From Fistulifera solaris (lineage: Eukaryota > Bacillariophyta > Bacillariophyceae > Naviculales > Stauroneidaceae), in NCBI GenBank assembly GCA_030295235.1, contig AP026157.1, positions 406,602 through 470,601 on the forward strand: a DNA stretch of 64,000 nucleotides, in the 5' to 3' direction. Of the stretch, positions 190-24,154 are shown one piece after another. The position numbers were made by a program, and so were the translations under genes. Under the pieces are notes generated by a model. The model worked only from the letters and a program-made list of their open reading frames with translations, was not told the DNA's origin and made no database searches. Positions within the stretch are counted from its first letter, which is position 1. The number at the start of each line of letters is the position of its first letter.

Positions 190-720
190 GATGTTTTCAC
201 GTGACCCAAAAATTTGGGATTGTGTTGTTTTTACGTAGCCCGAAAATCTGGGAGAGTGCTGTTTTCACGTCCCCCGAAAGTCTGGGCATGTGCTGTTTTC
301 ACGTCCCCCGAAAATCTGGGCATGTCCTGTTTTCACGTGCCCCGAAAATCTGCGCATGTGCTGTTTTCACGTCCCCGAAAATCTGGGCGAGTGATGTTTT
401 CACGTCCCCCGAAAATCTGGGGGAGTGTCGTTTTCACGTCCCCCGAAAATCTGCGCATGTGCTGTTTTGACGGTCCCAGAAAATCTGGGCGAGTGCTGTT
501 TTCACGTCCCCCGAAAATCTGCGCTTGTGCTGTTTTGACGGACCCAGAAAATCTGGGGGAGTACTGTTTTGACGGACCCAGAAAATCTGGGCGAGTGCTG
601 TTTTCACTGCCCCCGGAAATCTGGGGATGTGTCGTTTTCACGTCGCCCGAAAATCTTGGCAGTGCTGGCTTCACGTCCCCCGAAAATCTGGGCGTGTAAT
701 ATTTTCACATCTTCCAAAAA
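190..720. repeat. Tandem array 1, unit about 34-35 bp, CCAGAAAATCTGG core
   Basis: About fifteen head-to-tail units of 34-35 bp. Each carries a dyad of the form CCC-N-GAAAATC-N-GGG followed by a T-rich stretch ending in TTTTCACGTC or TTTTGACGG. The units at about 470-600 carry the perfect form CCCAGAAAATCTGGG, with arms CCCAGA and TCTGGG. Units stay open in several reading frames on both strands only because the sequence is periodic; no conserved protein is recognisable. Flanks at 1-189 and 721-1208 show no gene. Confidence 0.9.
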
Positions 721-1208
721 ATCCGGGGTAGTGGTATTGTCGAACCGTTTGGTTCGTGTTTTACTCTTTTTCTTCTAATGAGCGCTCATCGGTTTGTATC
801 ATGTTGCTCGAGATGAATCTCAATGATAATTGTCTTTTCATTGCTTGTTTCGTGTTATTGGAACAAGACAACTTCTTTATGCACAAGCTGAATACGAAGT
901 ATTCATATTATTTGCGTGGAATGGATTCAGTCATGAGTCATGTGTCATGTGTCATCTACCGTTGACACAATGACTATACTGTCAATCGCACTTGTATAAC
1001 AAAAAACGTGAAAACCAATTGTTTATAGGCTTTGCTGTAGGTTACTTTTTCCTATACGGGGCTAAAAAATTATCACGCGTGAGAGAGCGGAGAAAAAACA
1101 GCCTCCGAGGCGACACATTCTGCTGCGCTCACGTCTTCTCGTTCTTTCACAACAACAAATAATGGCTTCTCATTCTCAATCTCCCGTCTTTTCCAAAATG
1201 ATGCAAAC
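721..1208. other. Intergenic, upstream of peroxidase-like gene
   Basis: No supported gene. The segment runs from the end of repeat array 1 to the ATG of the peroxidase-like gene and presumably holds its promoter and 5' leader. No motif was recognised with confidence. Confidence 0.5.
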
Positions 1209-3268
1209 ATGTTGACTTCTTCTTTGATTCTTTTGTGCTTCGTTTGCGTCCTTTTTCGTTCCTGTGACGCATTACCTGTGAAACAAGAAGATGCCGACCT
1301 TTCGAAAGAAGAGCACTGTCGCTTGTATTGCGAAGAATATAGCGCTATTTGTCCTCAAATCGATATCCAATCGAGAGCCCGCCGCAGTGAACAAGCCCAA
1401 TTGAGTCAGCCTCTTTCTTTGGAAAAGTGTGTAGCCGATTGTGTCAACAAAGCGAAATTCCGCTTCAACGGCACGCCGCAAGATTTCATGAATCGGAATA
1501 CCATTCAATGTCGACGCAATCATTTGCATATGCAATTACAAGAACAGAATTTAGCCACCAGTGATCATTGTTTACACGCCATGTTTGCGGGAAAAGAACG
1601 ATGCAACTCCATTTTGCCTTCGACCGTGTATTATTACGGACTCATGCGTGTGGGGAAACTCTATTTTGAGGATCCGTATTATGAACCGAAAACAACACTG
1701 CTGTTGAGTTACGGATTAGGATTGTATTACGAAGGAGCGATGCGGGGTCGTTTGCAAACGCGGATGCCGTATTTTGAAGTGCCCCGTCAAGGTGTGACTT
1801 GTCCAGCAGCCGCAAGAAAGTATCGGAGTGCCGATGGAACCTGCAATCATGTCACAATGCCGCGGATGGGAGCCGTGAATACACCATTGATTTCGACATT
1901 AGAACCATCACCACCTCGCACTCTACCTCCGGTGAAAGATGTGGCCGCCATACTGCGGCGGCCGGAGAATCCGTCGACGGTCGCACCGTTCAATCAAATT
2001 GCCGTGGCGTGGATCCAAATGATGACACACGATTGGTTTCAACACGATCCTACGAATCCTGACAGTAAAATGAATCGCGTGACGCATTGGTGGGATGCGT
2101 CGCAATTGTACGGAAGTACGCTTACGCAACAAAGGGCCGTCCGCGTTCCCAACACGGGAAAGTTGCGGCTCGACAAACACCAGGAACTGAATTACACGAG
2201 CACCGGCATTCCCATTACTGGATTTGCGGACAACTGGTGGGCTGGTTTGCATATGATGCATACACTCTTTGTTCGAGAACACAATTGGTTGGCGGATCAA
2301 TTCGAACTTCAATATCCGGGAGTGTATACGGCCAACGACAAATTTCAATTGACACGGTTGTGTCTGTCGGCTCTTTGGCCAAAATTCATACCATCGAATG
2401 GACCCCCACGTTGCTGGACAATCCCGTGGCAGCACTAGGACTGCATACCAACTGGCGGGGTGTCGATGCCATTTTGGAGTATGGGACACAATTTGAACTG
2501 CAATTGGCGTACCGGATTGTGGGGGGAGATCAATCGGTGCCGCATGCGGGAAATGGAACCACACGGGAGACTATGTACAATACGACCTTTGCCATGACGG
2601 AAGAGTTTGTTGCCGTGTATCGCATGCACCCTTTGCTTCCGGATGACATGGAGATTGAAGGAATAACTTTGACATTGAATGATCTATCGTTCGTGGATGC
2701 CCGCAAATTGACCAAATCCGTGAAAACAACACAAACACTGCTGCAGGCGTTTGGGACAACGCCGGCGAATACGCTGTCGCTACAAAATTATCCCCGTCAA
2801 TTGTATGGTTTGGAGAAGCCGGGAATGTCACAACCCATTAACTTGGCAGAAATCGATTTACAGCGCGATAGGGAACGAAATTTGCCGCGGTACAATGACA
2901 TGCGCCGGCAGTTACTGCTGAAACCGTACAAGCGACTCGAGGATTTGACCGACGACGAAACAGAACTCAATTTATTGAAGAGTGTGTACCAGGATATCGA
3001 CCAAGTCGATTTGATGGTAGGGTGTCTCGTGGATAAAGATCGCCCGTACGGGTTTGCTTTTGGTATTGTCCCGTTTCACGTTTTTCTGGTGATGGCTTCG
3101 CGACGCATTCTGAACGATCGGTTTTTCATGGAAGACTTCAATGCAAAGGTGTATACGGACTTTGGATACAACTACGTACAGTCAGGGTCTCTGAAGCAAG
3201 TGATGGTTCGCCATTTTCCGGAATTAAATGATCAGATACCCGACAATCCATTCATGAATTGGACTTGA
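1209..3268 (+). CDS. Secreted heme peroxidase, alpha-dioxygenase/cyclooxygenase-like, one frameshift
   Basis: Resembles the animal-type heme peroxidase superfamily, closest to alpha-dioxygenases and cyclooxygenases that oxygenate fatty acids. Residues 1-21 look like a signal peptide ending at a C-D-A junction. A Cys-rich N-terminal segment (about residues 36-150) follows. The distal heme motif THDWFQHD places a His near residue 274, followed by WWDASQLYG. The conserved AKIHTIEWTP segment and the proximal motif VYRMHPLLPD lie in the second half. In VYRMH the Tyr sits three residues before the His, the spacing of the catalytic Tyr and proximal His in cyclooxygenase. The two halves are in different frames, joined near 2355-2390, where one base appears to be missing. 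No intron fits there. A pseudogene is possible, but the rest of the protein is clean. Confidence 0.82.
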
Positions 3269-4004
3269 AAAATCTTTTAGCGTTAGTGATGAGAAGTCAA
3301 GAGTGTTTAAAGTGCGCGTCTCGTTATCGAGCTCGATGAAAAGAAATCCACCTGATGCTACTGAGGTTGGTTTCGCCCCGAATCGCAACCGCAATGCCTA
3401 AATCACTGCAGCTGAGAACGCGTTCTTAACACTCATGTGAAGATGGGATTCTCGATTCTCGGAGGCCAAAATGAATATACCTGGTATGAATGCCTAATAC
3501 CACCACCAGAAACGGACTTGTCTATTGATGGTGGAGCAGTCACCCGCCGAAATGCCGACATCAAGTTACTTTATAGGATTGCTAAGGCGTTGTGATCATA
3601 CATCAGACAACGAACCCCATGTATTGACAGCATGAGTCGATGATGTGATCAAGCGTTGCTAGAAGCTAAGACATGATAATAGAAGCAACTAAAAGGGATA
3701 ATTATTAAGGAGTACTCCGTATCATTGATGGGGAGCCCCGTTTACATTTCAGTCTATAGTAATTTTGGGAAAACGTTTTGCAAGCCTTTTTTACATCACG
3801 AGTCAATGCGAGCATTGAAATAATCAAGCCAAGCAGAATTCGCTAGTAGACAAAGAACTTAGTCAGAAACTTAGCTAGATTATTAAATCTCGAACGGAAA
3901 CATAACTTTGATTCATGACTGAAATTGAATTATGATGAAAACGGACACAAATAAGCGTTGAGTTATAGTGAGTTTCGACTAAATCGCTGCATTCATCTTT
4001 CACC
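3269..4004. other. Intergenic, no gene seen
   Basis: No conserved reading frame, RNA gene or terminal repeat was recognised between the peroxidase-like gene and repeat array 2. Confidence 0.5.
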
Positions 4005-6765
4005 CCAAGAGGTTCCAGAATTTCTGGAACAACCACAAAATCTCTGTTTGACCCCAAACTTCTGGAACGCCAAACGAATCTCTATTTGAGCGAAAACACC
4101 GATTCCAGAATTTCTGGAACAGCCACAGAATCTCTGTTTGACCATAATCACCAAATCCAGAATTTCTGGAATTACCACAGAAGCTCTGTTTGACACAAAT
4201 AACCAATTCCAGAATTTCTGAAACTACCACAGAAGCTCTGTTTGACCCAAATCACAAATCACCAATTCCGGAATTTCTGGAACTACCACAGAAGCTCTGT
4301 TTGACAGAAATCATCAATTCCAGAATTTCTGGAACAACCACAGAATCTCGGTTGGACCGAAATCTACCGATTCAAGAATATCTGGAACTACCACAGAATC
4401 TCTGTTTCTGTTTGACCCAAATGGTCAATTCCAGAATTTCTGGAACTACCACAGAAGCTCTGTTTGACGCAAATGGTCGATTCCATAATTTCTGGAACTA
4501 CCACAGAAGCTCTCTTGGACCGAAATCTACCGATTCCAGAATATCTGGAATTACCACAGAAGCTCTGTTGGACCTAATTCACCGATTCCAAAATATCTGA
4601 ACAACCACAGAAGCTCTGTTTGACCCAAATCATCGATTCCAGAATATCTGGAACTACCCCAGAAGCTCTGTTTGACCGAAATCATCGAATTTAGAGTTTC
4701 TGGAATTACCACAGAAGCTCTTTTTGACCCAAATCACGTATCCAGAATATCTGGAACTACCACCGAATCTCTGTTGGACCGAAATCACTGATGATTCCAA
4801 GATATCTGGAACTACCACAGAAGCTCTGTTTGACCCAAATCACCAATTCCAGAATTTCTGGAACTACCACAGAAGCTCTGTTTGACCCAAATCACCAATT
4901 CCAGAATTTCTGGAATTACCACAGAAGCTCTGTTTGACCATAATCACCTAATCCAGAATTTCTGGAATTACCACAGAAGCTCTGTTTGACCCAAATCATC
5001 GATTCCAGAATTTCTGGAATTACCACAGAATCTCTGTTGGACCGAAATCACCGATTCCAGAATATCTGGAACTACCACAGAAGCTCTGTTTGACCGAAAT
5101 TGAATTTCTGGAATTACCATAGAAGCTCTGTTTGACACAAATAACCTATTCCAGAATTTCTGGAAATACCACAGAAGCTCTGTTTGACCCAAATCATCGA
5201 TTCCAGAATTTTTGGAATTACCACAGAATCTCTGTTGGACCGAAATCACCACTTCCAGAATTTCTGCAATTACCACAGAAGCTTTGTTTGACTCAAAAAT
5301 TACTTATTCTCTTCCAGAATTTCTGGAACTACCACAGAAGCTCTGTTTGACAGAAATCATCAATTCCAGAATTTCTGGAATTACCACAGAATCTCTGTTT
5401 GACCGAAATTAGCTATTCCAGAATATCTGGAACTACCACAGAAGCTCTGTTTGACCCAAATCACAAATCACCAATTCCGGAATTTCTGGAACTATCACAG
5501 AAGCTCTGTTTGACACAAATAACCTATTCCAGAATTTCTGGAAATACCACAGAAGCTCTGTTTGACCATAATCACCTAATCCAGAATTTCTGAAATTACC
5601 ACAGAAGCTCTGTTTGACCCAAATCATCGATTCCAGAATTTCTGCAATTACCACAGAAGCTTTGTTTGACTCAAAAATAACTTTTTCTCTTCCAGAATTT
5701 CTGGAACTACCACAGAAGCTCTGTTTGACAGAAATCAGCAATTCCAGAATTTCTGGAACTACCACAGAAGCTCTGTTTGACCCAAATCACAAATCACCAA
5801 TTCCGGAATTTCTGGAACTATCACAGAAGCTCTGTTTGACACAAATAACCTATTCCAGAATTTCTGGAAATACCACAGAAGCTCTGTTTGACCCAAATCA
5901 TCGATTCCAGAATTTCTGGAATTACCACAGAATCTCTGTTTGACCGAAATCACCGATTCCAGAATATCTGGAACTACCACAGAAGCTCTGTTCGACCCAA
6001 ATTGAATTTCTGGAACTACCACAGAAGCTCTGTTGGACCGAAATCACCTCTTCCAGAATTTCTGAGATTACCACAGAAGCTCTGTTTGACTCAAAAATTA
6101 CTCATTCTCTTCCAGAATTTCTGAAATTACCACAGAAGCTCTGTTTGACCCAAATCACAAATCACCAATTCCGGAATTTCTGGAATTACCATAGAAGCTC
6201 TGTTTCACACAAATAACCTATTCCAGAATTTCTGGAAATACCACAGAAGCTCTGTTTGACCCAAATCATCGATTCCAGAATTTCTGGAATTACCACAGAA
6301 TCTCTGTTGGACCGAAATCACCTCTTCCAGAATTTCTGAAATTACCACAGAAGCTTTGTTTGACTCAAAAATTACTTATTCTCTTCCAGAATTTCTGGAA
6401 CTACCACAGAAGCTCTGTTTGACAGAAATCATCAATTCCAGAATTTCTGGAATTACCACAGAATCTCTGTTTGACCGAAATCACCGATTCCAGAATATCT
6501 GGAACTACCACAGAAGCTCTGTTTGACTCAAATCACAAATCACCAATTCCGGAATTTCTGGAACTATCACAGAAGCTCTGTTTGACACAAATAACCTATT
6601 CCAGAATTTCTGGAAATACCACAGAAGCTCTGTTTGACCCAAATCATCGATTCCAGAATTTCTGGAATTACCACAGAATCTCTGTTGGACCGAAATCACC
6701 TCTTCCAGAATTTCTGAAATTACCACAGAAGCTCTGTTTGACTCAAAAATTACTTATTGTTTCGC
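4005..6765. repeat. Tandem array 2, unit about 45-52 bp, TTCCAGAATTTCTGGAA dyad
   Basis: More than fifty units. Each has the dyad TTCCAGAATTTCTGGAA (8-bp arms, 1-base centre), then a second short dyad ACAGAAGCTCTGT (arms ACAGA/TCTGT), then a variable linker such as TTGACCCAAATCA. Variants such as CCAGAATATCTGG keep the arms. Blocks of several units recur: the variant with linker ACACAAATAACC appears at about 5130, 5510, 5840, 6205 and 6585, giving a higher-order period of roughly 330-380 bp. Periodic open frames across the array look like by-products, since both strands are open and no family is recognisable. Confidence 0.95.
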
Positions 6766-6789
6766 ATCTTTTGGAACGATTAACCGCAG

Positions 6790-6851
6790 GTACTGTTGCA
6801 ACAACAAAATCACTTTTTTTTCTTGTTTTTAGCAATTACATGGCATCATGA
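6790..6851 (+). promoter_or_regulatory. Candidate leader intron and 3-codon upstream ORF
   Basis: A possible small intron runs from a GTACTG donor at 6790 to a T-rich tract ending in TTTTTAG at 6832. It is followed by a three-codon upstream ORF, ATGGCATCATGA, at 6840-6851. The stop of this ORF overlaps the ATG at 6848 that opens the next gene. The overlap could couple termination to re-initiation, but this is inference. Confidence 0.3.
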
Positions 6852-7410
6852 ACGATACGAAGGATGAAATACGACGGCAGATTTTCTTTGATCCGCCGAC
6901 CATCGAGGACGCCCTCAAAAATTATACGAGTTGGTTCGTAGCACAAAATCAAGCGGCTACCCTCGAGGTTCTTTCATTGACGCGGATGCTTTCCAAGTGC
7001 ATCAATCAGCATACTTTGGATACGAACAATAGGCAGGAAATGATTCTCGCCTCTGTTTGGAATCCTGTGCAGCAAGATGAAAGTCGAAAGGTGACGCAAA
7101 CGTTCGGGCGAGTGGCTTTACAAGCCATTTGGAAGCACTTAAATCTTGTGTCATCGCGTAGAAAATCTGAAATAAACGCCGATCCCGAAGCAGACGACGA
7201 AGATCTTGCTGACTCCTTCTTCAACTTGTTTGAATCGGCGCTTTTGCTTCGCTAGAAGAGGATTCATTCGCTCGCTTAATATGGAATACCGATCGAGGCA
7301 AGGAAGAACTCACCCGACGAGCAGCTCAAAGAAGAGCGGATGCTGCGCAACGTGAGATCGTTAGAAAGGATGAGACTCAGCGACTCTCGCATATTGAGGA
7401 AATCGATTGA
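6848..7410 (+). CDS. Hypothetical acidic protein, probable frameshift near C-terminus
   Basis: No family was recognised. The first 135 residues are soluble and mostly helical in character, with an acidic stretch DPEADDEDLADSFF near the end, and stop at 7253-7255. Shifting by one base within about 7225-7255 continues a charged, coiled-coil-like tail rich in Arg, Glu, Ala and Gln (for example RRAAQRRADAAQ) to a TGA at 7408-7410. The tail has the look of genuine coding sequence, so one missing base is likely. The gene starts 80 bp after repeat array 2 and converges with the PH/RelA-like gene, whose end is only 60 bp downstream. Confidence 0.5.
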
Positions 7411-7469
7411 AGACGTCGTATTTAGTTCATAAATTTCAAGTAATGATAGCTATTAAAGGCGCTTTCTGA

Positions 7470-10130
7470 TCATACTTCCGACACATCAACCTTCTTTTCG
7501 TCCGACAATCCTTGTGCATTTTTGCCCCGAGACCCTCCATTTTGCACATCCAAAAAAGCGAATCGTTCTCGTCGGATTCTACGCCAGTGTTTCTTGCTAG
7601 CTTTTATTTCTTTTTGACGCTTCTCTTCTTCTTCCCGTTCTTTCTTATTGGGATCTACAATCAAATTAAACGCCTCCTGCGGTGCACTCATGAGCGAGTC
7701 CCATAAACTCTGACTCGCCTGTGTCTTTTCTTGATTGCGAAGGAGTTCCGCGGCTTTCACTTTGATCATAATCTCATTGGCTTCGTTGTGTTTTCCTTGT
7801 GCCTTGAGTGACTGAGTCAAGTATTTGTACAAATTCACAGTTTCGTGATGATCGGGTCCAATGTCAGGAGATTCGATTCGCAATCGAATCAGATGCTTGA
7901 AAATAAGTTCCGCCCAAACATCCAGGCCGTGCTTTAGAAAGATACCGGCTTCGGCAAAATAATCCAGGATTTGCTTTTCGTGATACCACTCCAAATTGTC
8001 CAGCGGAGTGTTCGCCACCGCTTCTTCAGCCATGACTATCAGCTCCGCCATGGTCTTGCGGTCCAGTCCATCCAAGGCATCAAATGGATCGTCAAACGTA
8101 TCTGTCTTGTACTCCAAACAGTGGCGATAATGCCGGAAACCCTCGACGCCACAAACCGTCCACATGGGCCAGATGTGGACCTGAATTTCACAAATGTGTT
8201 CTTTAATCTCCACATTGATGATACAGTCACGGTATCCGCCCGGTTTGGCGTCGTAGGCGGATTTTAATGATGACATTTTGACACGGCGGATCCAAGGGCC
8301 AAACGAATCACGTGCCAGTTCGAGCAGTGCCAAGAAACTGGGAAAATCCTTCACAACCAACAAGGCTCGACAGTAATCCGTTACTTTTAATAAATCGCCC
8401 TTGTACTTTTTCTCCGCTTTTCGAATGGCAGCATCGGCTTCTTTGATTGGTCCTACACCCACTTCTTCCATGCCCAAATTACCCGCTAATGCTTTGCAGA
8501 TTTCCACCAAAGTTGGTAGCACGGTCTCCGCTTTTTTGATCATGGAACGAGCCAAATCTGGGCTAGTCATTGTTTCATATTCCGGCAGCTTCTTTTGTGT
8601 CACTTCTTTGTCATGTTTTTCGTAGCCAGCATCTCCTGGATCATTGAGGCCCATCATACTGTTCAAATATGGATACACCGGATCGAGTTGCAATCGACGA
8701 AAGACCTCATCATACTTGTTGCGATCACGTAGTAAGCTACAAACCATGCGATAAAAGTCCCAAGAGTCTTTAATGATAGCGCGGCGCTTGGCAATGGCCT
8801 CGAGAGCTTCATCGTCGTCTTCGCCAGCATAGGCCCCGGCATGAACTCGTTGCGTCGTGTAGTAAATACCACCCGCGCCGCCACCATGTTTCTTTCCACC
8901 CGGTAGTGCCCCAGCGCGAATCAGATTGTGCGAGTAGCCTGCCAAATTAAGATACTGATCCTCAAACTCGTCTAGTTCGTCTTCATTCAGTTTTTCCTTC
9001 ATCCATTGGTTCCGTGACTGCAATGATGAACAACACGATCCAAGTGCTTGTCAGCATAGTTCTCAGAGTAGAAAATGACTATTTCTCTCTTTGATTTCAC
9101 AATACGCACCTTCGAGTTTTTATTCCTGTTCTTGGCCAACATAAGGTTCATGGCTTCCCACCACGCGGTCGCCGTGCGTTGCTCGCACGCCACCAAAGTC
9201 CCTACGCGGCCGTCCTCACCCACCACTTCGAGACCACGACGCGAACGATCCGGACTCGGCCGCGCCTGCACAATGCGCAGTTCTCGGATCAATTGGGTAC
9301 GATCCGTGCGCGTATGAGGTTCCGACATGAGACTGAGTTGCTGCGTCGATGTATCCAGACGATAAATGAGAATGCCTTCGGGGACACGATTGTACCGATT
9401 CTTTTCCGATACTCTTTTTCTTTTGTCGAATCTTTTCTCGTTTTGTTTTAGCGTGTTCCTGGCGTGCCTTTTCGGCCGCCGCTTTTTGTGCGCGATACTC
9501 GATCATGGGATCGCTTGTCGTGACGGCTCCAGTGTCAGACTGCTTTCCGCAGCAGAACCACCCTTTCTTTGTTTGGGGCGCATCGACTTGTACAACGGCG
9601 GAAGGATTGGGACGTTCCGGCGGCGTCATGCGTGCACGCATCGTGTCGGTCGTTTTAATGCTGGAATCGTCCAGAAATTCATTCAAAAGGGCCACTGACG
9701 CTTGTAATTCGATAGCATTCTGACCTTCGCCGTCTTTGGGAGGCCATGAATAAGCAGGATCGACAAAAGCCGCCTCGAGAATGGTTCCTGACGGGAAAGT
9801 GAGCGACAGAGAAGTCTCATCGGCGGCACTCTGTCGTTTTTGACCGTCCAAAACGGGTGGCGGATTGTTTCTGGTGCTTTTGGCGCTCGTTATTCTACTG
9901 GAAGTTCTCTCCAATAGATTGCTTTCTACGACCGAAATTTCATCTGCACTTTTCGTACACTCGTCATTATCTTGAGATGCAACTTGAAACACGCGAACTT
10001 GATCTGGCTCTACTTGCTGAATTTCTTCTTCGTCGTCCGACGCATCGTCGACCGATTCCTTGACAATCTTGGTCGATTTTCCGAGAAATAATTCCGTCAC
10101 CGAATCGAAAATGGAAGGTTCCGCAGCCAT
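7470..10130 (-). CDS. PH domain + RelA/SpoT-like fold protein
   Basis: Exon 1 spans 10130-9111 and exon 2 spans 9017-7470. The intron at 9018-9110 has donor GTGCGT and acceptor TTGCAG, and splices in frame. The N-terminal ~220 residues are acidic and low complexity. A basic helix then leads into a PH-like domain (ILIYRLD at the start, AWWEAMNLML in the C-terminal helix). Exon 2 carries a segment like the RelA/SpoT nucleotidyltransferase fold (DLLKVTDYCRALLVVKD, then PGGYRDCIINV and ICEIQVH), a TPR-like helical stretch and a basic tail. The usual ppGpp synthetase residues are not obvious, so it may be a non-catalytic version. A +1 shift is needed near 9385-9425, in A-rich sequence, to join the acidic part to the PH domain. 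PH domains suggest phosphoinositide or membrane binding. Confidence 0.62.
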
Positions 10131-12280
10131 CGTTTGTGTCGCTGAATTGAGTGTAAAGTAAGTGAAAGCTAAAAGAACGTATTAGCGTTGCCGCACAACC
10201 AAATGCGGAAAGCATCCATGAAGCGCAATAGGCCGATGAATGAATTGAAAAGATAGGGGCAGTCTATGTATCCGTTGGCCTTGCTAAGTAATCTCGATTA
10301 CATAGTAAAGCATTGGACGTTCAACGGTTTGTCACTTGTAAGTGAATGATGGAGTGAAGTGCCGCATGACAAAAAATACTAAGTATAAAATTAGTCACGA
10401 GTACGATTGTCGCAGCATCAATGCATTTGTCCAATGTGTTGCCGAAAATTTAGTGTGACTGAAAATCAGTCAAGGGGTTGAAAATTTAGGTTAAACATTT
10501 TCTCTCTCAATTACGCTAACAAAAAGGCCGTTTGATACTGTTTGTCATTCGTCGATCAACAAATATAGCGTACCTCACGGTCGACTCAAATATTATAAGC
10601 AACTTTGTTCCGAAAAAAAGCAATTGACGCTCACGAAATTATTAGATGTAAAGGCCCGACCTAGAATTCTAAGTTACTCTGCAATGCACGATCTACCATT
10701 CGATGTTTGCGTCAACAATCCGAACCTGATATCATTTTTCATGTGGTCTTGGGGAGCACTGTTTGACGTCTTACTCCTGCCAAGAGGCTCCTGCGCTTGT
10801 ATGCAAGGATCAAGCATCAAACACCGAGCTCTATGCAAACTAAAGAATAAGAGATTTATTAGGCTATTGATTACGGAGTCACGTATTTATCTTGTTAGTT
10901 TATCGTTTATAACACATCTTAGTCGTAGAGTGAAACGGAAAATGAAGAGGAAAATGAACGGGGCCTAAAACTAAAACACAACGTGACACGTTACTCATGT
11001 TTGAAATATTGCGGTGCTTATCTCGTACCACCTAAGATTTTCGCCCTTCTCGAATACTCCGTACTTCGTAATGAACAATGAACACCGACCGCGCTGTTCG
11101 CTCTTCCAAGAGAAAACCATCATGGTCACGATGTCGCGAAGATGATGATTTTTGATTCGCGGAAATAAGATGCGACAGAGACACGATCTGGAGTCTTTCT
11201 TGAATGCACTACACTTTCATGTCGAATCACTCGGAAGCCCGAAACCTCTAGAATCGGAAGCCAAGGTTTCATTCGTTTGTCTTTTGTTATGCTTCGCAGT
11301 CCCGCGTATAACTCGCCTTAAGAGATCGCATTTCGTGTGTCTCAGGTCCCAGGGAGGAATAGAGGGTTTGTTTCTTGCCCACGCAGTCTGTGAACAAAAT
11401 GTACATTCTACACCTCACCGAGGCTTGCACCGAGGTTCCGCTTCCGCAGACGTCTTCGCAGAAAGACTCCAAGCGGCACGACTGCAATTCACAAGATGCA
11501 TAAATGCATAAATAAAAAACGGCAGGCAATAGGCAATTAAAAATTTATGGTTTTAATCCCTCTTAGTTATGAGTTATGCAAATAAGGAGGGCCAAGACTA
11601 CGGGTGATCTTGTACAATATGCTTGAACATATCATGTGAATGTCGTGTTCCTCAAAACTAAGTCCGCACTCCGCAAAACGAAAGAAATGCCAGGTCCCAC
11701 TGGATGGTCGAAATCGACAGAATACGGAATATAATAAGTTCTCATCCAGCTTCAGTAGAGAAAGGAGAAGAAGGAATTTATCGGCGATCTCCGCGTTCAC
11801 CGATCACTGTATTCAGTATTCACTCTTCTGATCGTCAAAGCGGCCACTCTACTTTTCTCTATTGTTAAAAAATGGAAGCACCTGCGTTATGCGCTGGACT
11901 CACGATGTGTCTTGTCTACGTCGCTTGCCGTATTTGGAATCGTAGAATAACTAGCAACAACACTTGATAGTTTTAGTTATTTCTAAACTTCAGTTAGTCC
12001 GATCTCCCGTGTAGAAACATTATTGAAGTTTAGGGAAACCTGTCTTTCAGTGTCTCACTTTCCGGACCAAAAGACTAAGCCCTTTCTTCTACTGGATTCG
12101 GTTTTGGTGTTTTTGCGTTTCTGCACAGTTGACTCTTTCTGCTTCTCTACAACGACATTCCCACACGAATTCAACCAACTTTTTTCACCCGAAACATCAC
12201 ACAAAATACAAAAAATTATCAACGACTCCATTCATTTCCTTTTTTCATCAGCATACCGAAGCAAGTTGCTACAATTCAAC
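10131..12280. other. Long intergenic region
   Basis: About 2.1 kb without a supported gene. Short open frames at 10624-10968 and 11152-11511 lack recognisable domains and convincing composition. The 5' end presumably holds the promoter of the leftward PH/RelA-like gene. No RNA gene was recognised. Confidence 0.5.
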
Positions 12281-12802
12281 ATGACATCCTTCCTCTACTC
12301 ATCACACGAAGATCAAGAAGTCGGATCCTTCTTCTGTCAAGCTCCTCCGGAGAAGATTGAAAGCACACGAAAGCTCAACGGTGATTCTTTCCCTCGTAGA
12401 CCCGTGACGATGAGCAAGCTGGATTCTCTCACCAAGCCACCAAGATGTCAGACTCCTCGACTGCTGATAACGCCTTACAGTGACGATGTCTTTGACGATG
12501 AGAACGATGATAACATTTCTACAGAAATTACCGAACCGGAAGCAACACCGTGGCTGTTTCGACCGATCGCCCCACCCGATGACTCGGCGGAGTACGATCT
12601 CAACGAGCACGATACATTTCAGCACGTTGAAGAAGAAGACGAGATGTGGGATGCGTTTTTGACCGGAATACCTATGGAAATTGAAGTTGATCCAAGGTAT
12701 TGTATCGAAGAGGTGGACGAACAAGATAATCTCGATCGAATGCTGATTGCACTGCACGCACAAAGTCAGCAGCTGATAGATATGCCTAGGCGAAAATATT
12801 AG
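12281..12802 (+). CDS. Hypothetical acidic protein
   Basis: About 173 residues from the ATG at 12281. The in-frame ATG at 12023 would add a Phe-rich, low-quality extension, so the downstream start is preferred. The protein is strongly acidic, with clusters such as DDVFDDENDD and EEEDEMWDAF, and ends in a TAG. No domain was recognised. The acidic and aromatic WDAF-like motif could be an interaction or activation segment, but that is speculation. There is no neighbour in operon-like proximity. Confidence 0.45.
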   Translation: MTSFLYSSHEDQEVGSFFCQAPPEKIESTRKLNGDSFPRRPVTMSKLDSLTKPPRCQTPRLLITPYSDDVFDDENDDNISTEITEPEATPWLFRPIAPPDDSAEYDLNEHDTFQHVEEEDEMWDAFLTGIPMEIEVDPRYCIEEVDEQDNLDRMLIALHAQSQQLIDMPRRKY

Positions 12803-14362
12803 AAGCCAGGCACATGTGTTTAATCTGCAGCGCTATTCGGCTTTTGTACATTTCATAAATTTATAAAGTTAGTTTTGCTTTTCTTAGCTGATTCTCTATT
12901 TCGCGAGGAACGTTGTTAATCGTCCGCTCATGATATGCTGCGACAATGTCTACTTTCGAGGGTCAAAGTTACAACGATACGAATCGAGAGCAATAGCTAT
13001 GCTGGGTGATGAATTATTTTGACGTTAGCGCAAGAGCTCTCTTCCGAATAGAACCTATCTCGCTCTCGAACCGTCTACTCTTTTAGATCGTCGGCAAAAG
13101 ATGAATACTCAGGCAAATCGGAAAGCTCAGTGAGGTTAATACTTCAAAACAGCTAAATCGTAGCTTCTCGTTTCGACGACGTCGCTTGAAGGACTGTGAA
13201 TCATTTCATTCTCAAACAAGAACTTCCGTTTAAATTGTCGCGAATACCATTCTTTTTATTCCAGTCGATGATAGATGCAACTTTGGTCTCTCCTTACATC
13301 ACATTGTGTCGGTTGAAAACCTGTTGGCTCTATTCAATTGCAGCGATAGCAATCACGACACTCGACGCACGCATGAGCATAGTCGATAGCACAAAATTTT
13401 CTGAAAAGAATCAATTTGCTTTTTGTCAAATCGTTGCGTAAAACAGTGGTTGACTCCATTTCTTGAATTAAACATGATTTCTTATTCGTCTGTCTCCTAG
13501 CAGGCGAATGAGGCGATGCGAAGCGAAAAAATAGGTGCATTATCTTGCTTGCTGATTGCATTCCTAAAAACAAATTTTATAGTCTTTTGCGATCCTCGAC
13601 ACTCATTTAAGTATCAAAAATATCCCTTTTATTTCGTTGAAAAGAGAATCAGAATTATAGCAGCGTTCTAAAACGCTCTTTGGGTTCGGCAGCGCTCATC
13701 CGCTTCATCGATCGAACAGAGAACCTACTACGTTGCTTTTGCTTTCTTGAAGAAAGGACTGTTGCACCAACCAAGCAGTGTGTCGCAATGAGTTGTTACT
13801 TTTCCTTACTAACAAAGAAATAAGTTTGTTGGTTGATAAGAGAAGGAAGCGCATTCGACAACAACATTATCAGCAGCACCGGGCACCGCAGACACGTTGC
13901 GGTGTAATCGGCGCGGACAATCGTGATTCGAGACATAAACCAGTCTTGTCGAAAAGTAATCTACACATTAGTCTATAGTACCACGTCATTCACCCACTCG
14001 AAAGGATAGTGCGAACCTACTAACATGATCAGCGCGTTACAAATGATGCTGAAAACGATCGAAATGAACTAAGAATAAAGGCTGCTCGTATCAAGCTATG
14101 AAAAGAGCAAGAATTAGACAATAGTACTATGGGCAGTTGCTCGGATGAATTCATTCAAACAACCAACGTTCCGCGTGTGAGAGCGAGATCCGGTTCTCGA
14201 TACAAAGACAAATGTTTTAGTCAGTTCATTTCTGATGCGTTTGCTACTAAGGCATAAAAGACAACAGCGCAGCACATGCTACGTTTCCAAGCCACGCCGC
14301 AATCAGCAACGATCATCGCGAGTCTCGAATCAGATTTTAGAACAACTCAGATCACCAGTCAT
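12803..14362. other. Intergenic, no gene seen
   Basis: About 1.5 kb with only short frames of no recognisable family. It separates the acidic protein gene from the 3' end of the JmjC gene. Confidence 0.5.
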
Positions 14363-16494
14363 CTACAGATTTGGCGCCACCACGCGTATCACTTCTATTT
14401 CGCTGTCGTCGTCATCATCATCATCATCATCATCGACCTTTTCGTCATGCAGTGGAGGCACTTTGTGCATCGAATCACGATTCTCGACAGGAATATCCAG
14501 GCTTCCCATGATAGACGACAGAGTGAGAGGATCCGTCCAGATTTCCTGGTTGCGGTGAAGCTCCAAATCGCGTTCTACTCCCGGTGCAATGTCAGGAAGC
14601 GGCCCAAGTGAAGCTGACTCCGTTGTCGCCTCGTTAGCATCAACGTCCTGGACCGCTGACGTTTTTAGGGACTCGCAGTGCGCCCGAACCTTTCCAAGGT
14701 CGATTTTAATTCTTCATTACTTGTCCACAACATAAAGTATTTTCGTTCCGTAGGGCACCGACACATGAAATGACTGTGACGCAAGCAGCTCACTTTCGAC
14801 TGACTACACTGGCACGCCACTGCCGAAGAAAAGCATACGTGTTTGCAGAAATGACACAAGCGTCGATCATCGTAACTGGCACTCTTTTCGTCAAGTTGGT
14901 CTAAACTGTTGCGAGGAAGCGCAATGACATCTGACACATCACGCACGCCATCATCGCTTAGCTTTTTGCGCAAACGGAGCTCTTCTTCAACAACACGCTC
15001 CAATTCATTCAATAAACGACGGCAGGTTGAGTAGGATTTCACGTCTTCGAGATGATTGGCCATTGTAAAGGTCAGACGGTCCTGCGAGAATACAGCTGGC
15101 CGTCTAAAGGAGCGATAGCGTTCGTTCGCTTCAGAACCATAAGAAATCCAATCAGGAGTTGCAAAGTTCACAGCTTCGCCTACATTCGGGCCAAGACTAA
15201 AGCCAGAATGAAACGCTCTAGGAAACGTAACCTATTACATGAATGATAACAAGGTGAGCCGAGACAGTGTGACATGGATGCGACCCAAACATTGCTTACT
15301 CACAACAAATTCTCCCTCGTACTGTAATAGCTTACTGACCACCACGTCTGCATGTTGAAGGAGCCGTGGACTAAACATGGTAGTAATGTGATGAAGCAAA
15401 TCCGGATCATCTCTCATTTTCATGGAAAGATAGTTCTTGAAGACACGCTCGAGACCTTCCGCCGCCTTCTTCTCCCCTGGAACACCGTACCACTGCTTGG
15501 GTGCGCCTTTGTGGTGATAGTTGATGCTGTACATGTAGTTATCTTCATTGTGCCAGCAAAATGTCGTAAACAACGAACCAAAATACATCCACGGGCAATT
15601 GACACCATTGATACCGACTTTGACATACCGCAAAACGCTTCCCGGTGCACTCGGAATATTGTTGAGATTCCACCACGTCTCTTTGTAATAATCTTCCGTT
15701 CCAAATTTCGGTTCCGGCAAATGCATCTTTTCGGCGTTTCGGGTTCCGTGCACACTCCGGCCTCGTTCCGACAGCGGAAAGCCCGATCCAAAGTCATGCG
15801 TATCGACATCGTTCCCGTATTCAACCGCCACTTCTTTCGTGTGCGTCTCAACAACATCCCAGTAATCCCGCTCTAAGTTATCCGGTGTAAATTGTCGACG
15901 ACCTTCGCTCGTGTGACGAGCCAACAAGTCATGATCCGGATAGTGTGTATTCTTCCACGCTTTCGTGCGTTCACTCGAAACCTGCAAATACTCCTTCGCG
16001 GCGTAATCATTGCCATCCCCGAAGCTAACACCTTCTTGCAATCGATGCAGCATTTGCAATTTCGTAGCGAACGTTTTCGGATTTCGATCAATATCAATGC
16101 CTGTAGCGGGGAAACGCGATAGATAAGAGAGAAAGAACTTGAGAGACGAAGAAAGTAGAAATAAAAATAAATGCCTCTCTCACCTGTGAAACTTACCAAA
16201 ATAGCGAGAAGGATTCCATCCTTTCGGAGGCACGATCTTACAAATACCGTAACGTTCCGCGACTCCCTGTATCTTGGCAATATAATCCAGCGGATTGCCT
16301 TCCATTTCTTCGACTGTAGGAAAGAAGGCGGGAGCCCACGGAATATGGAGTTTCCCTTGCCGCGTGCGATCGAGTTTGGAATTTTGGATGGCTTGCGCCA
16401 AATAGCGTTCTTCCGTCGCGGTCGCAAATTGAAAGTAACTCGGAGGACGCCTTCGGCGACGCTTTGCGGCGCGGTGATTCGCGGTGCTGCTCAT
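14363..16494 (-). CDS. KDM5-like JmjN/JmjC/C5HC2 histone lysine demethylase
   Basis: Exons 16494-16197, 16100-15304 and 15231-14363; both introns (96 and 72 bp) have GT-AG ends and splice in frame. Order: basic N-terminus, JmjN (FFPTVEEMEGNPLDYI), JmjC, C5HC2 zinc finger, acidic tail. The JmjC domain contains FCWHNEDNYMYSINYHH, where His and Glu are iron ligands, and the third iron His is in FPRAFHSG, which is restored only by the second splice. The zinc finger reads CHFCKHVCFSSAVACQC followed by SCLRH and MCRC. The family removes methyl groups from histone H3 lysine using Fe(II) and 2-oxoglutarate in the nucleus. PHD and ARID domains of animal KDM5 are absent, so the layout is closer to plant JMJ14-18. 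One base seems missing at the A run near 14704-14707. Reading on in the shifted frame adds about 110 residues ending after a poly-Asp tract. Confidence 0.88.
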
Positions 16495-16854
16495 TCTAGT
16501 GAGTTTTTGTTTTATGAAATCAGTAGGATAATAAATGAATTACAAAGGTCGAATAGACATGCAAAGTTGATATCCCAAATGCAAAAAGACTTTAGCGACA
16601 ACTATGACAGGTCCGGCGAAATACGCGTGCAAGTGTGGACTTTTTGCGGCTTCCATTATTTCACCGCCAAAGTCCGCACTGTGTCCGCATGATTGACTAT
16701 GCAGGAAAGTGTTGCTTCTCTCGGAAAAGAATGGCCGTGCGGTATTCGCACAAATCCCAAATCATCCGAACCGAACTTTGGCCAAACGGACAGACGGCAA
16801 ATGAAGTCGGACGTCGGCCGGACGCCTCGGACGACGACAGGCAAACCAAAAACA

Positions 16855-17715
16855 CCCTCTTCAGAATTTCTGGATGAATCACCGAATGTCTGTAATCTGG
16901 AACTTCCACCAAACCTCTGTGTGAAGCGAAACTTCGACGTGTAGAAAATCTCTCTGTAACGCAAAACAACAAATCCAGATTTTCTGGAACATACACAGAA
17001 ATTCTGAATGAATAAAAACACCCATGGTCCAGAATTTCTGGACCAGGCACAATTTTGTGCAACACGAAGATAAACAGTTCCAGAAATTCGGGAACGTCCA
17101 CCAAATCTCTTTGTGTTGCAAATCAACGATTCCAGAATATCTGGAACGTGCAGAAATTGAACTGTGACGCGAATCAACAATTCCAGATTTTCTGGAATAT
17201 ACACAGAAATTCTGAATGATTAAAACAACGATGGTCCAGAATTTCTGGACCAGGCACAATTTTGTGCAAGACGAAAATAAACAGTTCCAGAAATTCGGGA
17301 ACGTCCACCAAATCTCTTTGTGACGCAAATCCACGATTCCAGAATATCTGGATCGTGCAGAAAAATCTCTCTGTGACGCGAATCAACAATTCCAGATTTT
17401 CTGGAACATACATAGAAATTCTGAATGATTAAAAATACCGATGGTCCAGAATTTCTGGACCAGGCACAATTTTGTGCAACACGAAGATGAACAGTTCCAG
17501 AAACTCGGGAACGTCGACCAAATCTCTTTGTGACGCAAATCCACGATTCCAGAATATCTGGATCGTGCAGAAAATCTCTCTGTGACGCGAATCAACAATT
17601 CCAGATTTTCTGGACCAGGCACAATTTTGTGCAACACGAAGATAAACAATTCCAAACTCTCGTTTACAAAATCTCTGTTCCATAAAAAGCACTTTTTCCA
17701 GAATTTCTGGAATTT
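16855..17715. repeat. Tandem array 3, dyad repeats with about 210-bp period
   Basis: A mixture of dyads in a fixed order: TGGTCCAGAATTTCTGGACCA (10-bp arms), a GCACAA-TT-TTGTGC dyad, CAGTTCCAGAAATTCGGGAAC, TTCCAGAATATCTGGA and TTCCAGATTTTCTGGAA. The block recurs at about 17020, 17232 and 17442, a period of about 210 bp. The core CCAGA-N3-TCTGG is shared with arrays 1 and 2. No gene is supported inside. Confidence 0.92.
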
Positions 17716-17761
17716 ACTCTTGACTGACTCATGACTTAAATGCAGTTATTGCGAAAATCTC

Positions 17762-18714
17762 ATGTTCTGCCTTTACTGCTGCCAACCACAAACACAAACG
17801 CAAAGAAATATGTTATCGATCAATTTAACCATAACATCATTGCTCCTACTTCTGTTAAAACTGCAATCAATTAACAGTTTACATATCCCTATTATTTACG
17901 AGTCAAAAGATTTCTTGGCGATCAACAAACCATCGGGAATTCCTTATCATTCGACGACCGACGAATTGGGCATCGTAGCACTCGTTCGACAGCAATACAA
18001 TCAAGAACATCCGACAGCGCGATTATACAGTGTTCATCGACTGGATCGAGTGACATCGGGCATCTTGTTGTTGGCGAAAACTCCAGAGGCGGCTCGAGAA
18101 TTAACCCGCTTGTTTCGAGAAAAGAATATTGTCAAATATTATACGGCACTCTCGTATCACAAAGCGACACAGAAAAAGCAGGGATGGATCCAAGGAGGAA
18201 TGGAACGCGGGCGACGCAAGTCGTGGATGTTAGTGCGCGAGTAGTGTTTGCTCAAACGCGATTCTTTAGTGCGGGCTTGGGGCAGTTGAGTGCTGCGGAT
18301 GGTTTGGCTCCATTATCTCTATCCAATTCGAAGGAAACCGCACCTTTGGCACCCCGTACCTTGTTGCTGTTGCGACCGTACACCGGAAAAACGCATCAGT
18401 TGCGTGTCGCTGCAAAAAGTGTTGGCTTACCGCTCGCGGGCGATCCCGTCTACAAGGATCGCTACGATTCATCGGCGACACTAGATCGAACCTATTTGCA
18501 TGCGACTGCTTTGGAGATTCCTGCGTCAAAAGATGATACTTCTATATGTTTCCCAGAAAGCATATCATTGTGGTGCCCGCCGCCGTTTGCACACTTTTGG
18601 CAGAACGAGAAAGAGTTCAACGAGGTTCTACAACGTTTGGTGGACAAGCATTGCGAGTCGGCAGAGCTGCGTGCTCTTTGTCGCGGGCCGTATCACGAAG
18701 AGATCTCGCCATGA
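17762..18714 (+). CDS. RluA-family RNA pseudouridine synthase, one frameshift
   Basis: The protein isomerises uridine to pseudouridine in RNA. The catalytic loop HRLDRVTSG holds the essential Asp; INKPSGIPYH lies before it, and GKTHQLRVAAKSVGLPLAGD after it is the classic C-terminal family signature. The first 40 residues (from 17762, or from the second ATG at 17810) are hydrophobic and Leu-rich, suggesting a signal or organelle-targeting sequence. The N-terminal part ends at a TAG at 18243-18245, and the C-terminal part is open in another frame, overlapping from about 18184. One missing base near 18200-18245 would join them. The order and completeness of the motifs argue for a single functional gene. 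Expected target: rRNA or tRNA, probably organellar. Confidence 0.83.
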
Positions 18715-19411
18715 AAGGAAATACATCTGAACTGTTACTTTGGTGCTCAGCCGACAGGATCTTTGGAACAGGCATTTCGAAATTTGTGAAAAAGCTCGGC
18801 GTTTGGGAAGTACTTTAGTGATGGCCAGTCGGAGTAGAGGCTACTAGAGGTTTGTCGGTGGTCGGCGGCCGTTCCGCTTGTTATAGCTAAAACACGTGTT
18901 GATGATGGGGTCACGATTGCACGGAAAGTTCTTGGTTCGAATGGCCGATCCATCGGCGGAGCACATCAAGAGAGGACGAGAAAATCACTCTCGGTTCGTG
19001 GCTAGATTGCGCAAAACCACTGTGACGTCATTTTGAGTCGTGAAGTGCTGTCACGCTTACACTCCGAGTACTTTGATACCCTCTTTGTGTACTCAACGAT
19101 TCCCGCGGTGTCTGTCGGTACGGCGCCTTTCTCGTGCCCTTAATTATTGAATACTTATGGATAGGCACGGATCTCCACACAGAAAGTACCAACGAGAGCG
19201 AGCCGACTACAGTAACTATGGTACAAATCCAATCGAACCTTTCGAACGGATATCGGAGACAATTCCGGTGAACCTTGAGCGCACTTTGAGAAATTTCTCG
19301 TTTCACTAAAAGCGTCCGTTCCTTCCTTCATTTGTGCTCACCTCCTTTGAGGCAGTATTGTTTGATTGAATGGAACATCACCTCTGACACCATCACCCCA
19401 TTGATCCAATC
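18715..19411. other. Intergenic, no gene seen
   Basis: About 700 bp between the pseudouridine synthase and the first membrane protein. No conserved frame or RNA gene was recognised. Confidence 0.45.
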
Positions 19412-20056
19412 ATGAAGTTTCCAACGCAACCCCGTAAAAGCCAAAAGCGGCAACAACGAACAGCCAAACCAGAACAGCCACGACGAGAAGACGAAGAAAT
19501 CATCAGTATTTCGTATTCGGATATGTACACGAGTTCCACTGTGGGTGAGCCCGCTTACGATATGGAGGCAGTGCAAGAAACATCCGAACCACAGTCCTCG
19601 ATGATGGTGTTTTCTACACTTCATCCGGAGGACACCCCTACCGTAACATCGTTCCCTACCGACGTCCAGAGTATCATTCGCCATCAGCGTTGCACTACAG
19701 AAGAGTTCGAAGTTGTGTTTCGACAAGTTGGAGAAGACTTTACTCCGAAACAAAAGAGTCAGATGCGATTGTTTCAACTACTGACTTCGCCGACGCAGTC
19801 GAGCAATTCTTCCCATGCTCCCAAGAGCGATGAAGACGAACTGGAAACGAGTTGCTTTGGTTCTCCGTGGGAACTTACGGTCTGGACGATTTCAGCTATT
19901 CTGGTGATTAGCGTGACGGTGATTCTTTGTGCTTTACTTTACAATCGTCGCATCGGTGACGATGCTCCCGTGACGGCTGTCCCCTTTTCGGCTTCCACGA
20001 TACCTCCGCAATGGACTTCAGACGCTTTGAATGTGACGACGACACCGAGTCCATGA
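19412..20056 (+). CDS. Single-pass membrane protein, hypothetical
   Basis: 214 residues. The N-terminus is basic and Gln/Lys-rich, followed by a Ser/Thr/Glu-rich disordered region. One clear transmembrane helix lies near residues 153-175 (VWTISAILVISVTVILCALL), ending in basic residues YNRR. The tail is short and Ser/Thr/Pro-rich. No domain was recognised. The arrangement of a disordered cytosolic half, one helix and an outer Thr/Pro-rich tail resembles the N-terminal part of diatom LRR surface proteins and is repeated by the next gene, 480 bp downstream on the same strand. The two may be diverged relatives. Confidence 0.6.
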   Translation: MKFPTQPRKSQKRQQRTAKPEQPRREDEEIISISYSDMYTSSTVGEPAYDMEAVQETSEPQSSMMVFSTLHPEDTPTVTSFPTDVQSIIRHQRCTTEEFEVVFRQVGEDFTPKQKSQMRLFQLLTSPTQSSNSSHAPKSDEDELETSCFGSPWELTVWTISAILVISVTVILCALLYNRRIGDDAPVTAVPFSASTIPPQWTSDALNVTTTPSP

Positions 20057-20535
20057 AATTTCTGTATGTTTCTATGTATTGTTTCGGAACCTCTGGTCAG
20101 CTACGGAGGTCTGCATGGATTGATTGTTTATTTTTCTAGAAAGGGGTTTATTGTGAGCCCGCGAACTTCACTGAATCTTTTCGCGCGCAAAATCTGCGCC
20201 AAAAAGTGAAGATTTTAGCTCTTTTCTTTCTATAGTAATATTTTAGTTAGACGTTGTTCCAGATTTCTCTTTTCAACGGCTATTTATCTGTTAAATACAG
20301 ATACTCTTTGAAGTGTGTTGTGCACGAATAGACGCGTCGCGGGCGCGCACCCAAAGGCCCTGAATTTTCAAAAGCCAAGAAAGCAGAAAGCTGCCGCCCA
20401 CCAAGAAAAAAAATGACTTGAAGCAACAACGCAAAAAGCTTTCCCCGTGCTATCGTTGTCTTTTCTCTCTTTCAAAGCATTGATTTTCGACCGGTTTACT
20501 TGTCCTTTATCAACGCACTTTACTTATAGATACGA

Positions 20536-21601
20536 ATGACAAATCGACAAACGGCGTTGCCTCTATTTGACGAGCCGACCTTGTCGGATATTTACATGAG
20601 CGACATGGAAGACGACGACGACGATGACTTGAGTGACGATTCGATAGCGAGCTCTGCCGTGTTTCCTGTACAACGGATGTCGCAACAGAATGATGTGTTG
20701 ATTGCGGAACTGCCAGCGAAAAGTCTATCCATGATAAAAACCGTGCCAAGTCCGATGAAAACAAGGAATCGCCACCATCGCTCGCGAAGATCACGTCATC
20801 GTCGACAACAACCGAGTCCTGGAGAAGATCCACCGGGATACGAAGCTTCGAGCACATTGGATTTGACACGCTTTATTTATACGTTACCGGATGTACATGA
20901 AGAAGAACCTTCCAAGGCATCGACGATGCCCAAGGACCCAAAATTCAGTGAATCCACCAACCCGTATGTGCAGCAACGGCGCCTTCATTTGTGTGTCATT
21001 TTCCTGACTTTCCTGTTCTTGTTGCTGGGGATTACGGTCGCCGTTATCGGTTCGACCATCTATCAAGAAGAGGAAGTCCCAACGGCCACTTCCGCCAGTG
21101 CCGCTCTCGAACAGGAAGATGGTGGTAGTTTACCCGCCGTGCCCATTGATCTCCCGGATAATCTTTTTTAGCGTTCGTCCTCCGTCACTGTCGCCGTCTC
21201 GTGGGGGTACTACATTTCCTTCGGCATTGAAAGATACCATTGCACTAACCGCCATGCCTACGTTGCGTGTATCCGAAGTAACTCCACCCATGGCGCCTCC
21301 TAGTATGCGGCCAACAATACGACCGACTCGAACACCCACCATTCAATCCACAGACCCACCTTCGTCGCCGCCGATCTTGGAACCTTTGGAAGTGCAAGTG
21401 TCTCCACCGTCGCGACCACCCACACGCTCATCTTTGACGGCCCGTCCGACACCGGTTCGATCGTTCGCTCCGACCCCCAGACGCGTTGAGTGGACGCCAG
21501 CGCCCGTAGAAGAGACGTTTGAACCCACGGTACCCGCCAAGAAACCAAAAGGAGAAAAAACGGCAATAAGGTTTAGTAGGATATGCTTTCTTTGTTTCTA
21601 G
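20536..21601 (+). CDS. Single-pass membrane protein with Pro/Thr-rich outer region, frameshifted
   Basis: The N-terminal ~150 residues are acidic then Arg/His/Ser-rich (MEDDDDDDLSDDS, then RSRRSRHRRQQ). A transmembrane helix follows near residues 155-177 (LHLCVIFLTFLFLLLGITVA). The frame stops at a TAG just after a run of six T at 21164-21169. Shifting there by one base continues for about 140 residues of Pro/Thr/Ser-rich sequence (RPTIRPTRTPT), the type used as a wall-spanning linker in diatom surface proteins. Past 21571 a GT...TAG stretch of only 31 bp could extend the frame to about 21840, but an intron this short is doubtful. No LRR domain follows, so the gene may be truncated. Confidence 0.58.
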
Positions 21602-21977
21602 ACTCATCATTGCGGAAAATGATTGCCCATTTGAAGTCGAACGTCACAACCGCTTTATCACCATGGTTACTGCTCATCGGAGAATGCCTTTGTTGACGAT
21701 TCAGCCGTTCTGGAGCTTCCTCCTTGTTTGTGGCTCAAATTTTGGAATCTCGTGTGTGCCAATTTCGGGATCATGTGTGTGCAATTTTCAGGCTCGATTA
21801 ACTATTACGACATGCTATCCATTCACTAAAGATTCGCTATGACAGAAGTGCTTCGTCGAAAACGAATGCTACCAAGTACCCACAAAATTTCGATTGCAGC
21901 AATGGCTGAAGCCTGGCTTTCATTATCAGCCGAAGGAGACGTCCTGCTGATTATGTTAACTGTTTCTATTTTTAATT

Positions 21978-23552: not shown

Positions 23553-24154
23553 CGTGATTATTTAGCGTTAGGAGCGGTGTTTGAGAGTAAAAAGAGGAAA
23601 TAAACTTGCACAATGAGCACTGATATTGTTTTTGCGATGAATGAAATAATGAAATGCACATTGCGCTGTACGAGTAAGGTTACGTAGTAGTAACCTTAAA
23701 CCTTACAGGGTACATCGGCTTTTGTAGCTTGCCTACAGAAGACACCACAGTACTGTAAAACAATACTACGGAGTACGTACTACGAGTAAGACATTCAGTC
23801 ACGGACGTCGTGGACTTACCAGTTATCCGGGTTCTCCTCTGTCGATAAATTTCCTTAGCAGAGCTACGTGAAATTACATAGACATTCGAAGCGTTGGATC
23901 ATTCGTTCCATCATCGTTTTGTTTTCAAATCGTGGGCGACTCTTGCGTTCTGCTACGATACGAAGCAATTACGGTGGGCATCATGAAAGGGCTAGTCTAT
24001 TGTTTCACGCTTTGCAATTTTGCAGGCGAGACGTGTGAGTATCAGTCAAGGATACATCATCATCTTCTTTTGCATCGCTGAAGAACGCTAACCTTATCCA
24101 TTAACTGTTATCGGCCCCTCGTTTTTCTCCTGCATCGTCGTCCACTTTTATGAC

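Follow-up and report, generated by a model that had tools for sequence, protein, structure and literature searches.

In Meloidogyne satellites, divergent repeat units are reported to keep a CENP-B-box-like motif, for which a role in protein binding has been proposed (PMC3694981, PMC9673304), and the TCAST satellite of Tribolium, like satellites of the Pacific oyster, forms short arrays scattered near genes (PMC4537270, PMC3411249, PMC7492417, PMC8268682). In Xenopus laevis, transposon relics mark the chromosomes of one progenitor (cited in PMC5935921). The diatom Fistulifera solaris has been described as an allopolyploid (allodiploid) with the subgenomes Fso_h and Fso_l, which were distinguished on the basis of GC ratio and codon usage (PMC5935921). 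In a 64-kb stretch of F. solaris contig C42 (64,000 nucleotides, hereafter the window), three tandem arrays are built on an inverted repeat, or dyad, with the core CCAGANNNTCTGG (CCAGA-N3-TCTGG). The three arrays are variants of one minisatellite family dispersed between genes, and this family is amplified in one subgenome and apparently almost missing from the other.

The window contains 44 exact cores, of which 3, 30 and 11 belong to arrays 1, 2 and 3, respectively; the expectation from shuffled sequences is 0.07. A genome-wide search for this pattern had been proposed in the initial annotation of the window, which was made from the sequence alone. Across 51,715,745 bases in 61 contigs the core was found 4309 times, far above chance as judged by the 30 matches of a reversed control pattern, and it is present in other arrays of the genome as well. 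The longer palindrome TGGTCCAGA-N3-TCTGGACCA, a 21-mer, has 828 matches genome-wide and none when reversed, and the sister dyad ACAGA-N3-TCTGT has 1329 (control 31). The first 560 kb of contig C1 hold 15 clusters of the family. With its 4309 cores, the clusters on C1 and a common unit plan, the family is represented by many arrays per genome, as a satellite family is.

Array 1 (192..708, minus strand) comprises about 15 copies of a 34-bp single-dyad unit, the orientation of which is opposite to that of arrays 2 and 3. Array 2 (4015..6747, plus strand) contains about 50 copies of a 52-bp unit with two dyads, TTCCAGA-N3-TCTGGAA and ACAGA-N3-TCTGT, and in array 3 (16862..17710, plus strand) units of the 52-bp type are composite in a higher-order repeat of 207/210 bp, with the TTCC and TGGTCC classes intermixed. 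The assignments are based on Tandem Repeats Finder (TRF) and a copy-by-copy list, together with unit orientation for array 1 and core counts for arrays 2 and 3; a sample strong dyad of the TGGTCCAGA-N3-TCTGGACCA class, recognised by core and arm match, lies at 17029..17041 (plus strand). TRF placed the 34-bp unit at 192-708, the 52-bp unit at 4060-6747 and the 52/207/210-bp units at 16938-17614, in agreement with the arrays initially annotated at 190-720, 4005-6765 and 16855-17715, and these head-to-tail, non-coding units of tens of base pairs are of the minisatellite/satellite type. The second dyad, ACAGA-N3-TCTGT, which had escaped the initial annotation, is found in most 52-bp units of array 2, at distances of 20 and 32 bp from the neighbouring dyads. 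Array 1 had been described as centred on CCCAGA/TCTGGG; this form is seen in just three of its 15 copies, which were located allowing up to two core mismatches. The majority variant is the asymmetric CCCCGA-N3-TCTGGG: the left arm reads CCGA or CCGG, so that the dyad is broken, in 11 of the 15 copies, and CAAA in one.

The comparison of units covered 24 arrays (the three of the window, one on C43 and 20 from C1), 20 of which could be divided into units; a typical unit from each of these was aligned. Two dyads per unit are seen, by eye, in 17 of the 20 aligned arrays, the order being a strong dyad 1, a short linker, a weaker dyad 2 and a linker with an A-rich stretch. The arms of dyad 1 are TGGTCCAGA or ATTCCAGA, and dyad 2 is (C)ACAGA-N3-TCTG(T), or of the CCCAGA type in units of 67-69 bp. 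The other three arrays (array 1, L036 and L047) are 34-35-bp single-dyad forms, and the remnant on C43 combines the 34-bp type and the ACAGA type within one array. Since the 20 arrays align on a common unit plan, the three arrays of the window do not represent three separate inventions of the dyad.

The distribution of the family over the contigs is markedly one-sided, which is its strongest pattern and one that the sequence of the window alone could not reveal. The dyad variant TTCCAGATATTCTGGAA has 121 matches, and all 100 among the matches listed lie on odd-numbered contigs and none on even-numbered ones, forming 43 clusters on C1, C3, C5, C7, C9, C11, C13, C15, C17, C19 and C23. All eight matches of TGGTCCAGAAACTCTGGACCA are on C1, C5, C11 and C23. 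ACAGA-N3-TCTGTRTGACCG has 22 matches in all, 15 of them on C5, C9, C17, C19, C23 and C25 (up to C25, 15 of 15 are odd) and the remaining seven on C28, C38, C40 and C47, in a range where the contig numbering is shifted, C38 and C42 each carrying the lower number of their pair. Other patterns do match even-numbered contigs, and hence the odd-only result is no fault of the way in which matches were listed.

The comparison with the homeologous contig C43 points in the same direction. The corresponding gaps of C43 lack arrays 1 and 2. Array 3 is represented there by a short, degenerate stretch (C43:321,920-322,138), and for a two-dyad site at C42:401,433, a decayed version lies in the equivalent gap of C43. 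TRF detected no array of the dyad kind in 40 kb of C43 or in 21.5 kb of C44. Joined flanks of arrays 1-3, representing empty sites, aligned to C43 better than shuffled sequences did (z of 12.7, 9.0 and 13.0, respectively), with junctions too heavily gapped to reveal a target duplication. By the matches listed (100 of 121 for TTCCAGATATTCTGGAA) and by 40 kb of the partner contig, the family is thus a subgenome-specific repeat with two degenerate remnants on C43. The simplest history would involve an old seed in the common ancestor, followed by amplification in one progenitor lineage.

Several observations bear on the pairing of contigs. C1/C2, C3/C4 and C5/C6 have rare similar sites in common (one 12-mer each in the case of C3/C4 and C5/C6), and C15/C16 and C23/C24 have silicon transporter loci in common. 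Homeolog-specific guide-RNA targets, one per homeolog, have been reported for the F. solaris apt gene (PMC13276009); the two targets match exactly once each, on C38 and C39, which thus have apt in common. These matches identify the genome as that of F. solaris, and it also has strong silicon transporter matches. C42 and C43 have the genes of the window in common, and C44 is 98% identical to C43. The GC content of C42 is higher than that of C43 in nine of 15 aligned blocks, equal in one and lower in five.

Within the dyads, the distance between the two arms is almost invariable. The 4309 genomic sites with a gap of 3 compare with 370 for gaps of 4-12 together (control 131) and 112 for gaps of 0-2 together (control 22), and among the CCAGA/TCTGG sites with gaps of 0-15 in the 24 fetched arrays, 250 of 257 have a gap of 3. 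The spacing of neighbouring dyads ranges from 14 bp to 75 bp, the upper limit of the measurement; at a period of 10.5 bp it gave a vector strength of 0.33 over 345 distances, which are too interdependent within arrays to support any conclusion on helical phasing. In alignments of whole units, all 12 arrays that qualified have arms that are better conserved than their linkers (Wilcoxon p 0.0005). Of the 23 arrays that entered this test, ten fell short in the number of repeats or copies (the minimum was six copies), and array 1 lacked the consensus dyad that was also required. With L035 left out, the difference persists in all 11 remaining arrays, whichever of three unit rotations is used. Because arms and gap are steady while the linkers vary, what stays constant is the dyad, not the unit as a whole. 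To this extent the initial interpretation is supported, but the argument from covariation on which it had been built fails, as described below.

The dyad classes differ from one another by paired arm differences (CCC/GGG, TTCC/GGAA, TGGTCC/GGACCA, ACAGA/TCTGT), and compensating arm changes had been proposed. In 14 arrays that were not picked by their outer-arm sequence, the first consensus position outside CCAGA is symmetric in 13 arrays (p 0.011) and the second in 10 (p 0.021), and the third and fourth positions, symmetric in five arrays each (p 0.73 and 0.49), are no better than permuted ones. Arrays L044-L053 were excluded because they had been taken from a list of sites with perfect symmetry, and the 14-array test supersedes an earlier one of 24 arrays (p 0.00125). 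Copies were also examined one by one, each dyad being anchored on AGA-N3-TCT and set against the most similar symmetric class in its own array. At arm positions 4-8 this yielded 149 one-arm and 36 two-arm changes; 15 of the latter are symmetric, none of these at positions 4-6, and they consist of 11 class switches, three changes belonging to a different dyad of L035 (misassigned) and a single remaining case. The three positions adjoining the AGA/TCT anchor (4-6) have 48 changes confined to one arm and none that are paired, a count that takes each class, ACAGA/TCTGT included, as its own reference. ACAGA/TCTGT, which represents a paired difference at position 5 and accounts for 56 of the 281 dyads in the unselected arrays, was counted as one class and not as many events. 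Given the common unit plan, the outer-arm differences amount, by our own count, to about four class-level changes and not to many independent compensations. Hence, a few dyad classes do differ by paired changes, but no such change recurs copy by copy, where substitutions break the symmetry at least as often as they keep it. The prevalence of one-arm changes within arrays argues against selection on pairing alone.

The interpretation that we favour, at roughly even confidence, is that of a dispersed minisatellite family of mostly polar units, expanded in one progenitor lineage, the dyads of which are probably read by a putative homodimeric DNA-binding protein. Such a homodimer would read the two arms of an inverted-repeat site with a fixed 3-bp gap, which would explain the lasting arm letters and gap in units whose linkers change in length and sequence. 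Changes in array length are presumably due to unequal exchange or slippage, and the arrays have presumably also spread through the genome. A number of points weigh against this interpretation. The arrays were found via the core, which favours conserved cores; six of the 12 arrays in the comparison of arms and linkers came from the list of perfectly symmetric sites; the fixed gap follows in part from common descent; the four outer positions taken jointly reach p 0.054 in the 14 unselected arrays; and array 1 retains its symmetry-breaking arm in 11 of 15 copies. In addition, pairing is evidenced for C1/C2, C3/C4, C5/C6, C15/C16, C23/C24, C38/C39 and C42/C43, the other pairs being inferred from the numbering. 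Alternatively, the dyads may fold into hairpins or cruciforms during replication, with template switching mending the palindromes and promoting array growth without any binding protein. As single-stranded DNA, the strong dyads fold well (-8.5 and -5.7 kcal/mol, z of -4.7 and -3.5), and the TGGTCC class has perfect 9-base arms in its 828 genomic copies; since perfect dyads fold in this way, a palindrome-mending mutation process could be at work. However, folding does not account for the lack of paired changes beside 48 one-arm changes at positions 4-6, the gap length is nearly constant although loops of 4-5 would fold, and the usual copy of array 1 has been amplified even though it folds no better than shuffled sequences (z -0.4), all of which makes the hairpin explanation rather doubtful. 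As letters and gap are fixed and the pairs show no covariation, sequence recognition fits better than folding, and dimer binding would be the better of the two options, hairpin or dimeric site, that were put forward initially.

Were the arrays a passive satellite, the dyad would be a relic of the founding unit, with core and gap maintained by descent and homogenisation in the absence of a binding partner. That all arrays follow one unit plan (20 of 24 cut and aligned), that arm changes mostly break symmetry, that presence and size of arrays vary freely between homeologs, and that restriction to one subgenome is usual for satellites are all in keeping with this. Passive descent accounts for the common plan but not for the arm-linker difference, which is seen in every array that could be tested and at each rotation, and linker lengths vary whereas gaps do not; we regard it as unlikely. 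It is very improbable that the arrays belong to a mobile element, as repeats of its ends or body, with the dyads serving as binding sites of its transposase, by analogy with the Helentron-carried satellites of oyster. The arrays are indeed dispersed over many contigs, and a separate element on C42 (390.1-391.1 kb) consists of a body of about 1 kb between two arrays of a dyad with another core, and pairs of sites at a spacing of about 960 bp recur three times elsewhere; yet the flanks of nine arrays (up to 1.2 kb on each side) were without similarity, and a transposon with shared flanks was rejected, as no flank-to-flank match was found among them. The separate element (L033, C42:390,042-391,162), situated about 15 kb before the window, carries 155-bp direct arrays at both ends that are 89% alike and built on the dyad GAGAGAAA/TTTCTCTC. 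The exact dyad occurs 11 times elsewhere (C3, C9, C19, C28, C34 and C40), and six of these occurrences form the three pairs. Recognition of the dyads by a homodimer, as favoured here, could be extended to the idea that the dyad arrays of one subgenome bind a single dimeric protein and thereby gain a chromatin or segregation identity in the hybrid nucleus. This seems quite improbable; if true, the arrays would act, for example, as dispersed kinetochore-like, boundary or expression-bias elements and would have been kept, together with the protein, as a tag since hybridisation.

A protein that binds the dyad, if there is one, would have thousands of natural sites in this diatom and would count as a satellite-binding factor. 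The genes beside arrays 1 and 2, which have no array on C43, allow a ready comparison of expression between homeologs with and without an array; about 61% of F. solaris homeolog pairs are described as having biased expression (PMC5935921). Moreover, a one-sided repeat family is an independent chromosome paint that could be used to map homoeologous exchanges, an example of which has been described as a flip on F. solaris chromosome 10 (PMC5935921). Within the window, the identity between positions 17,836-24,521 and C43:322,278-329,013 is 91-100%, compared with 84-91% in 14.4-16.5 kb and most prior bins. This tract is likely a product of homoeologous conversion or exchange, and its near edge falls in the gap 16,526-17,836, which holds array 3; it is one case, possibly due to chance.

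As to the surroundings of the arrays, array 2 ends within about 100 bp of a downstream unnamed open frame, and array 3 within about 100 bp of a pseudouridine synthase frame. Downstream of array 1, at a distance of 500 bp, an animal-type haem peroxidase is encoded at 1,209-3,268 in two overlapping frames, a split that could be explained by an intron, a frameshift or an assembly error. A cluster of duplicated similar sequences near the chromosome end (about 20,320-38,632 in the window and C43:326,690-343,461) is arranged differently in the two homeologs. TAGGGT telomere repeats occupy 63,800-64,000, where the window and contig C42 both end, and no known RNA families were detected in the window at gathering thresholds.

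A few described elements were considered as candidates and rejected. The core of the CENP-B box is TTCG-N4-A-N2-CGGG; no exact core was found in the 17 array regions scanned, and with one mismatch allowed there are 17 matches in the window compared with 14.8 expected, one of them in array 2 and three in array 3. The TTCCAGA/TCTGGAA arms resemble the TTC/GAA trimers of the heat-shock element, the canonical spacing of which is GAA-N2-TTC-N2-GAA. This three-trimer spacing is absent from 16 of the 17 array regions, a scan that did not include L035-L040, and one palindromic match occurs in L051. A viral source was likewise rejected, TGGTCCAGA-N3-TCTGGACCA having no matches in viral contigs. TTCCAGA-N3-TCTGGAA is scattered there in at least 120 stretches, 80 loci having been scanned; one viral locus (L108) carries three such sites 132 bp apart and, as read in part and by eye, represents a different repeat.

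No description of the dyad arrays was found in the literature by title and start of abstract, a search outside which the main F. solaris genome paper lies. The family appears to be new, and the kind of satellite is known; what is new is that fixed-gap dyads, as a rule two to a unit, are combined with restriction to a single subgenome, in a diatom. So far as the cited sources describe them, the Meloidogyne satellites resemble the family in having one short conserved box in divergent units and copies along the chromosomes. Their box, however, is a 17-bp CENP-B-box-like motif, as opposed to the fixed-gap dyad, two per unit, of F. solaris. Tribolium and oyster share with F. solaris the short arrays scattered in gene-rich DNA, as far as reported, whereas the F. 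solaris arrays have a dyad core, belong to one subgenome and have shown no mobile carrier in the flanks of the nine arrays. In the published accounts of Xenopus laevis and of plant allopolyploid satellites a repeat family likewise marks the chromosomes of one progenitor, but in F. solaris the family that does so is a dyad minisatellite, and its host is a diatom.

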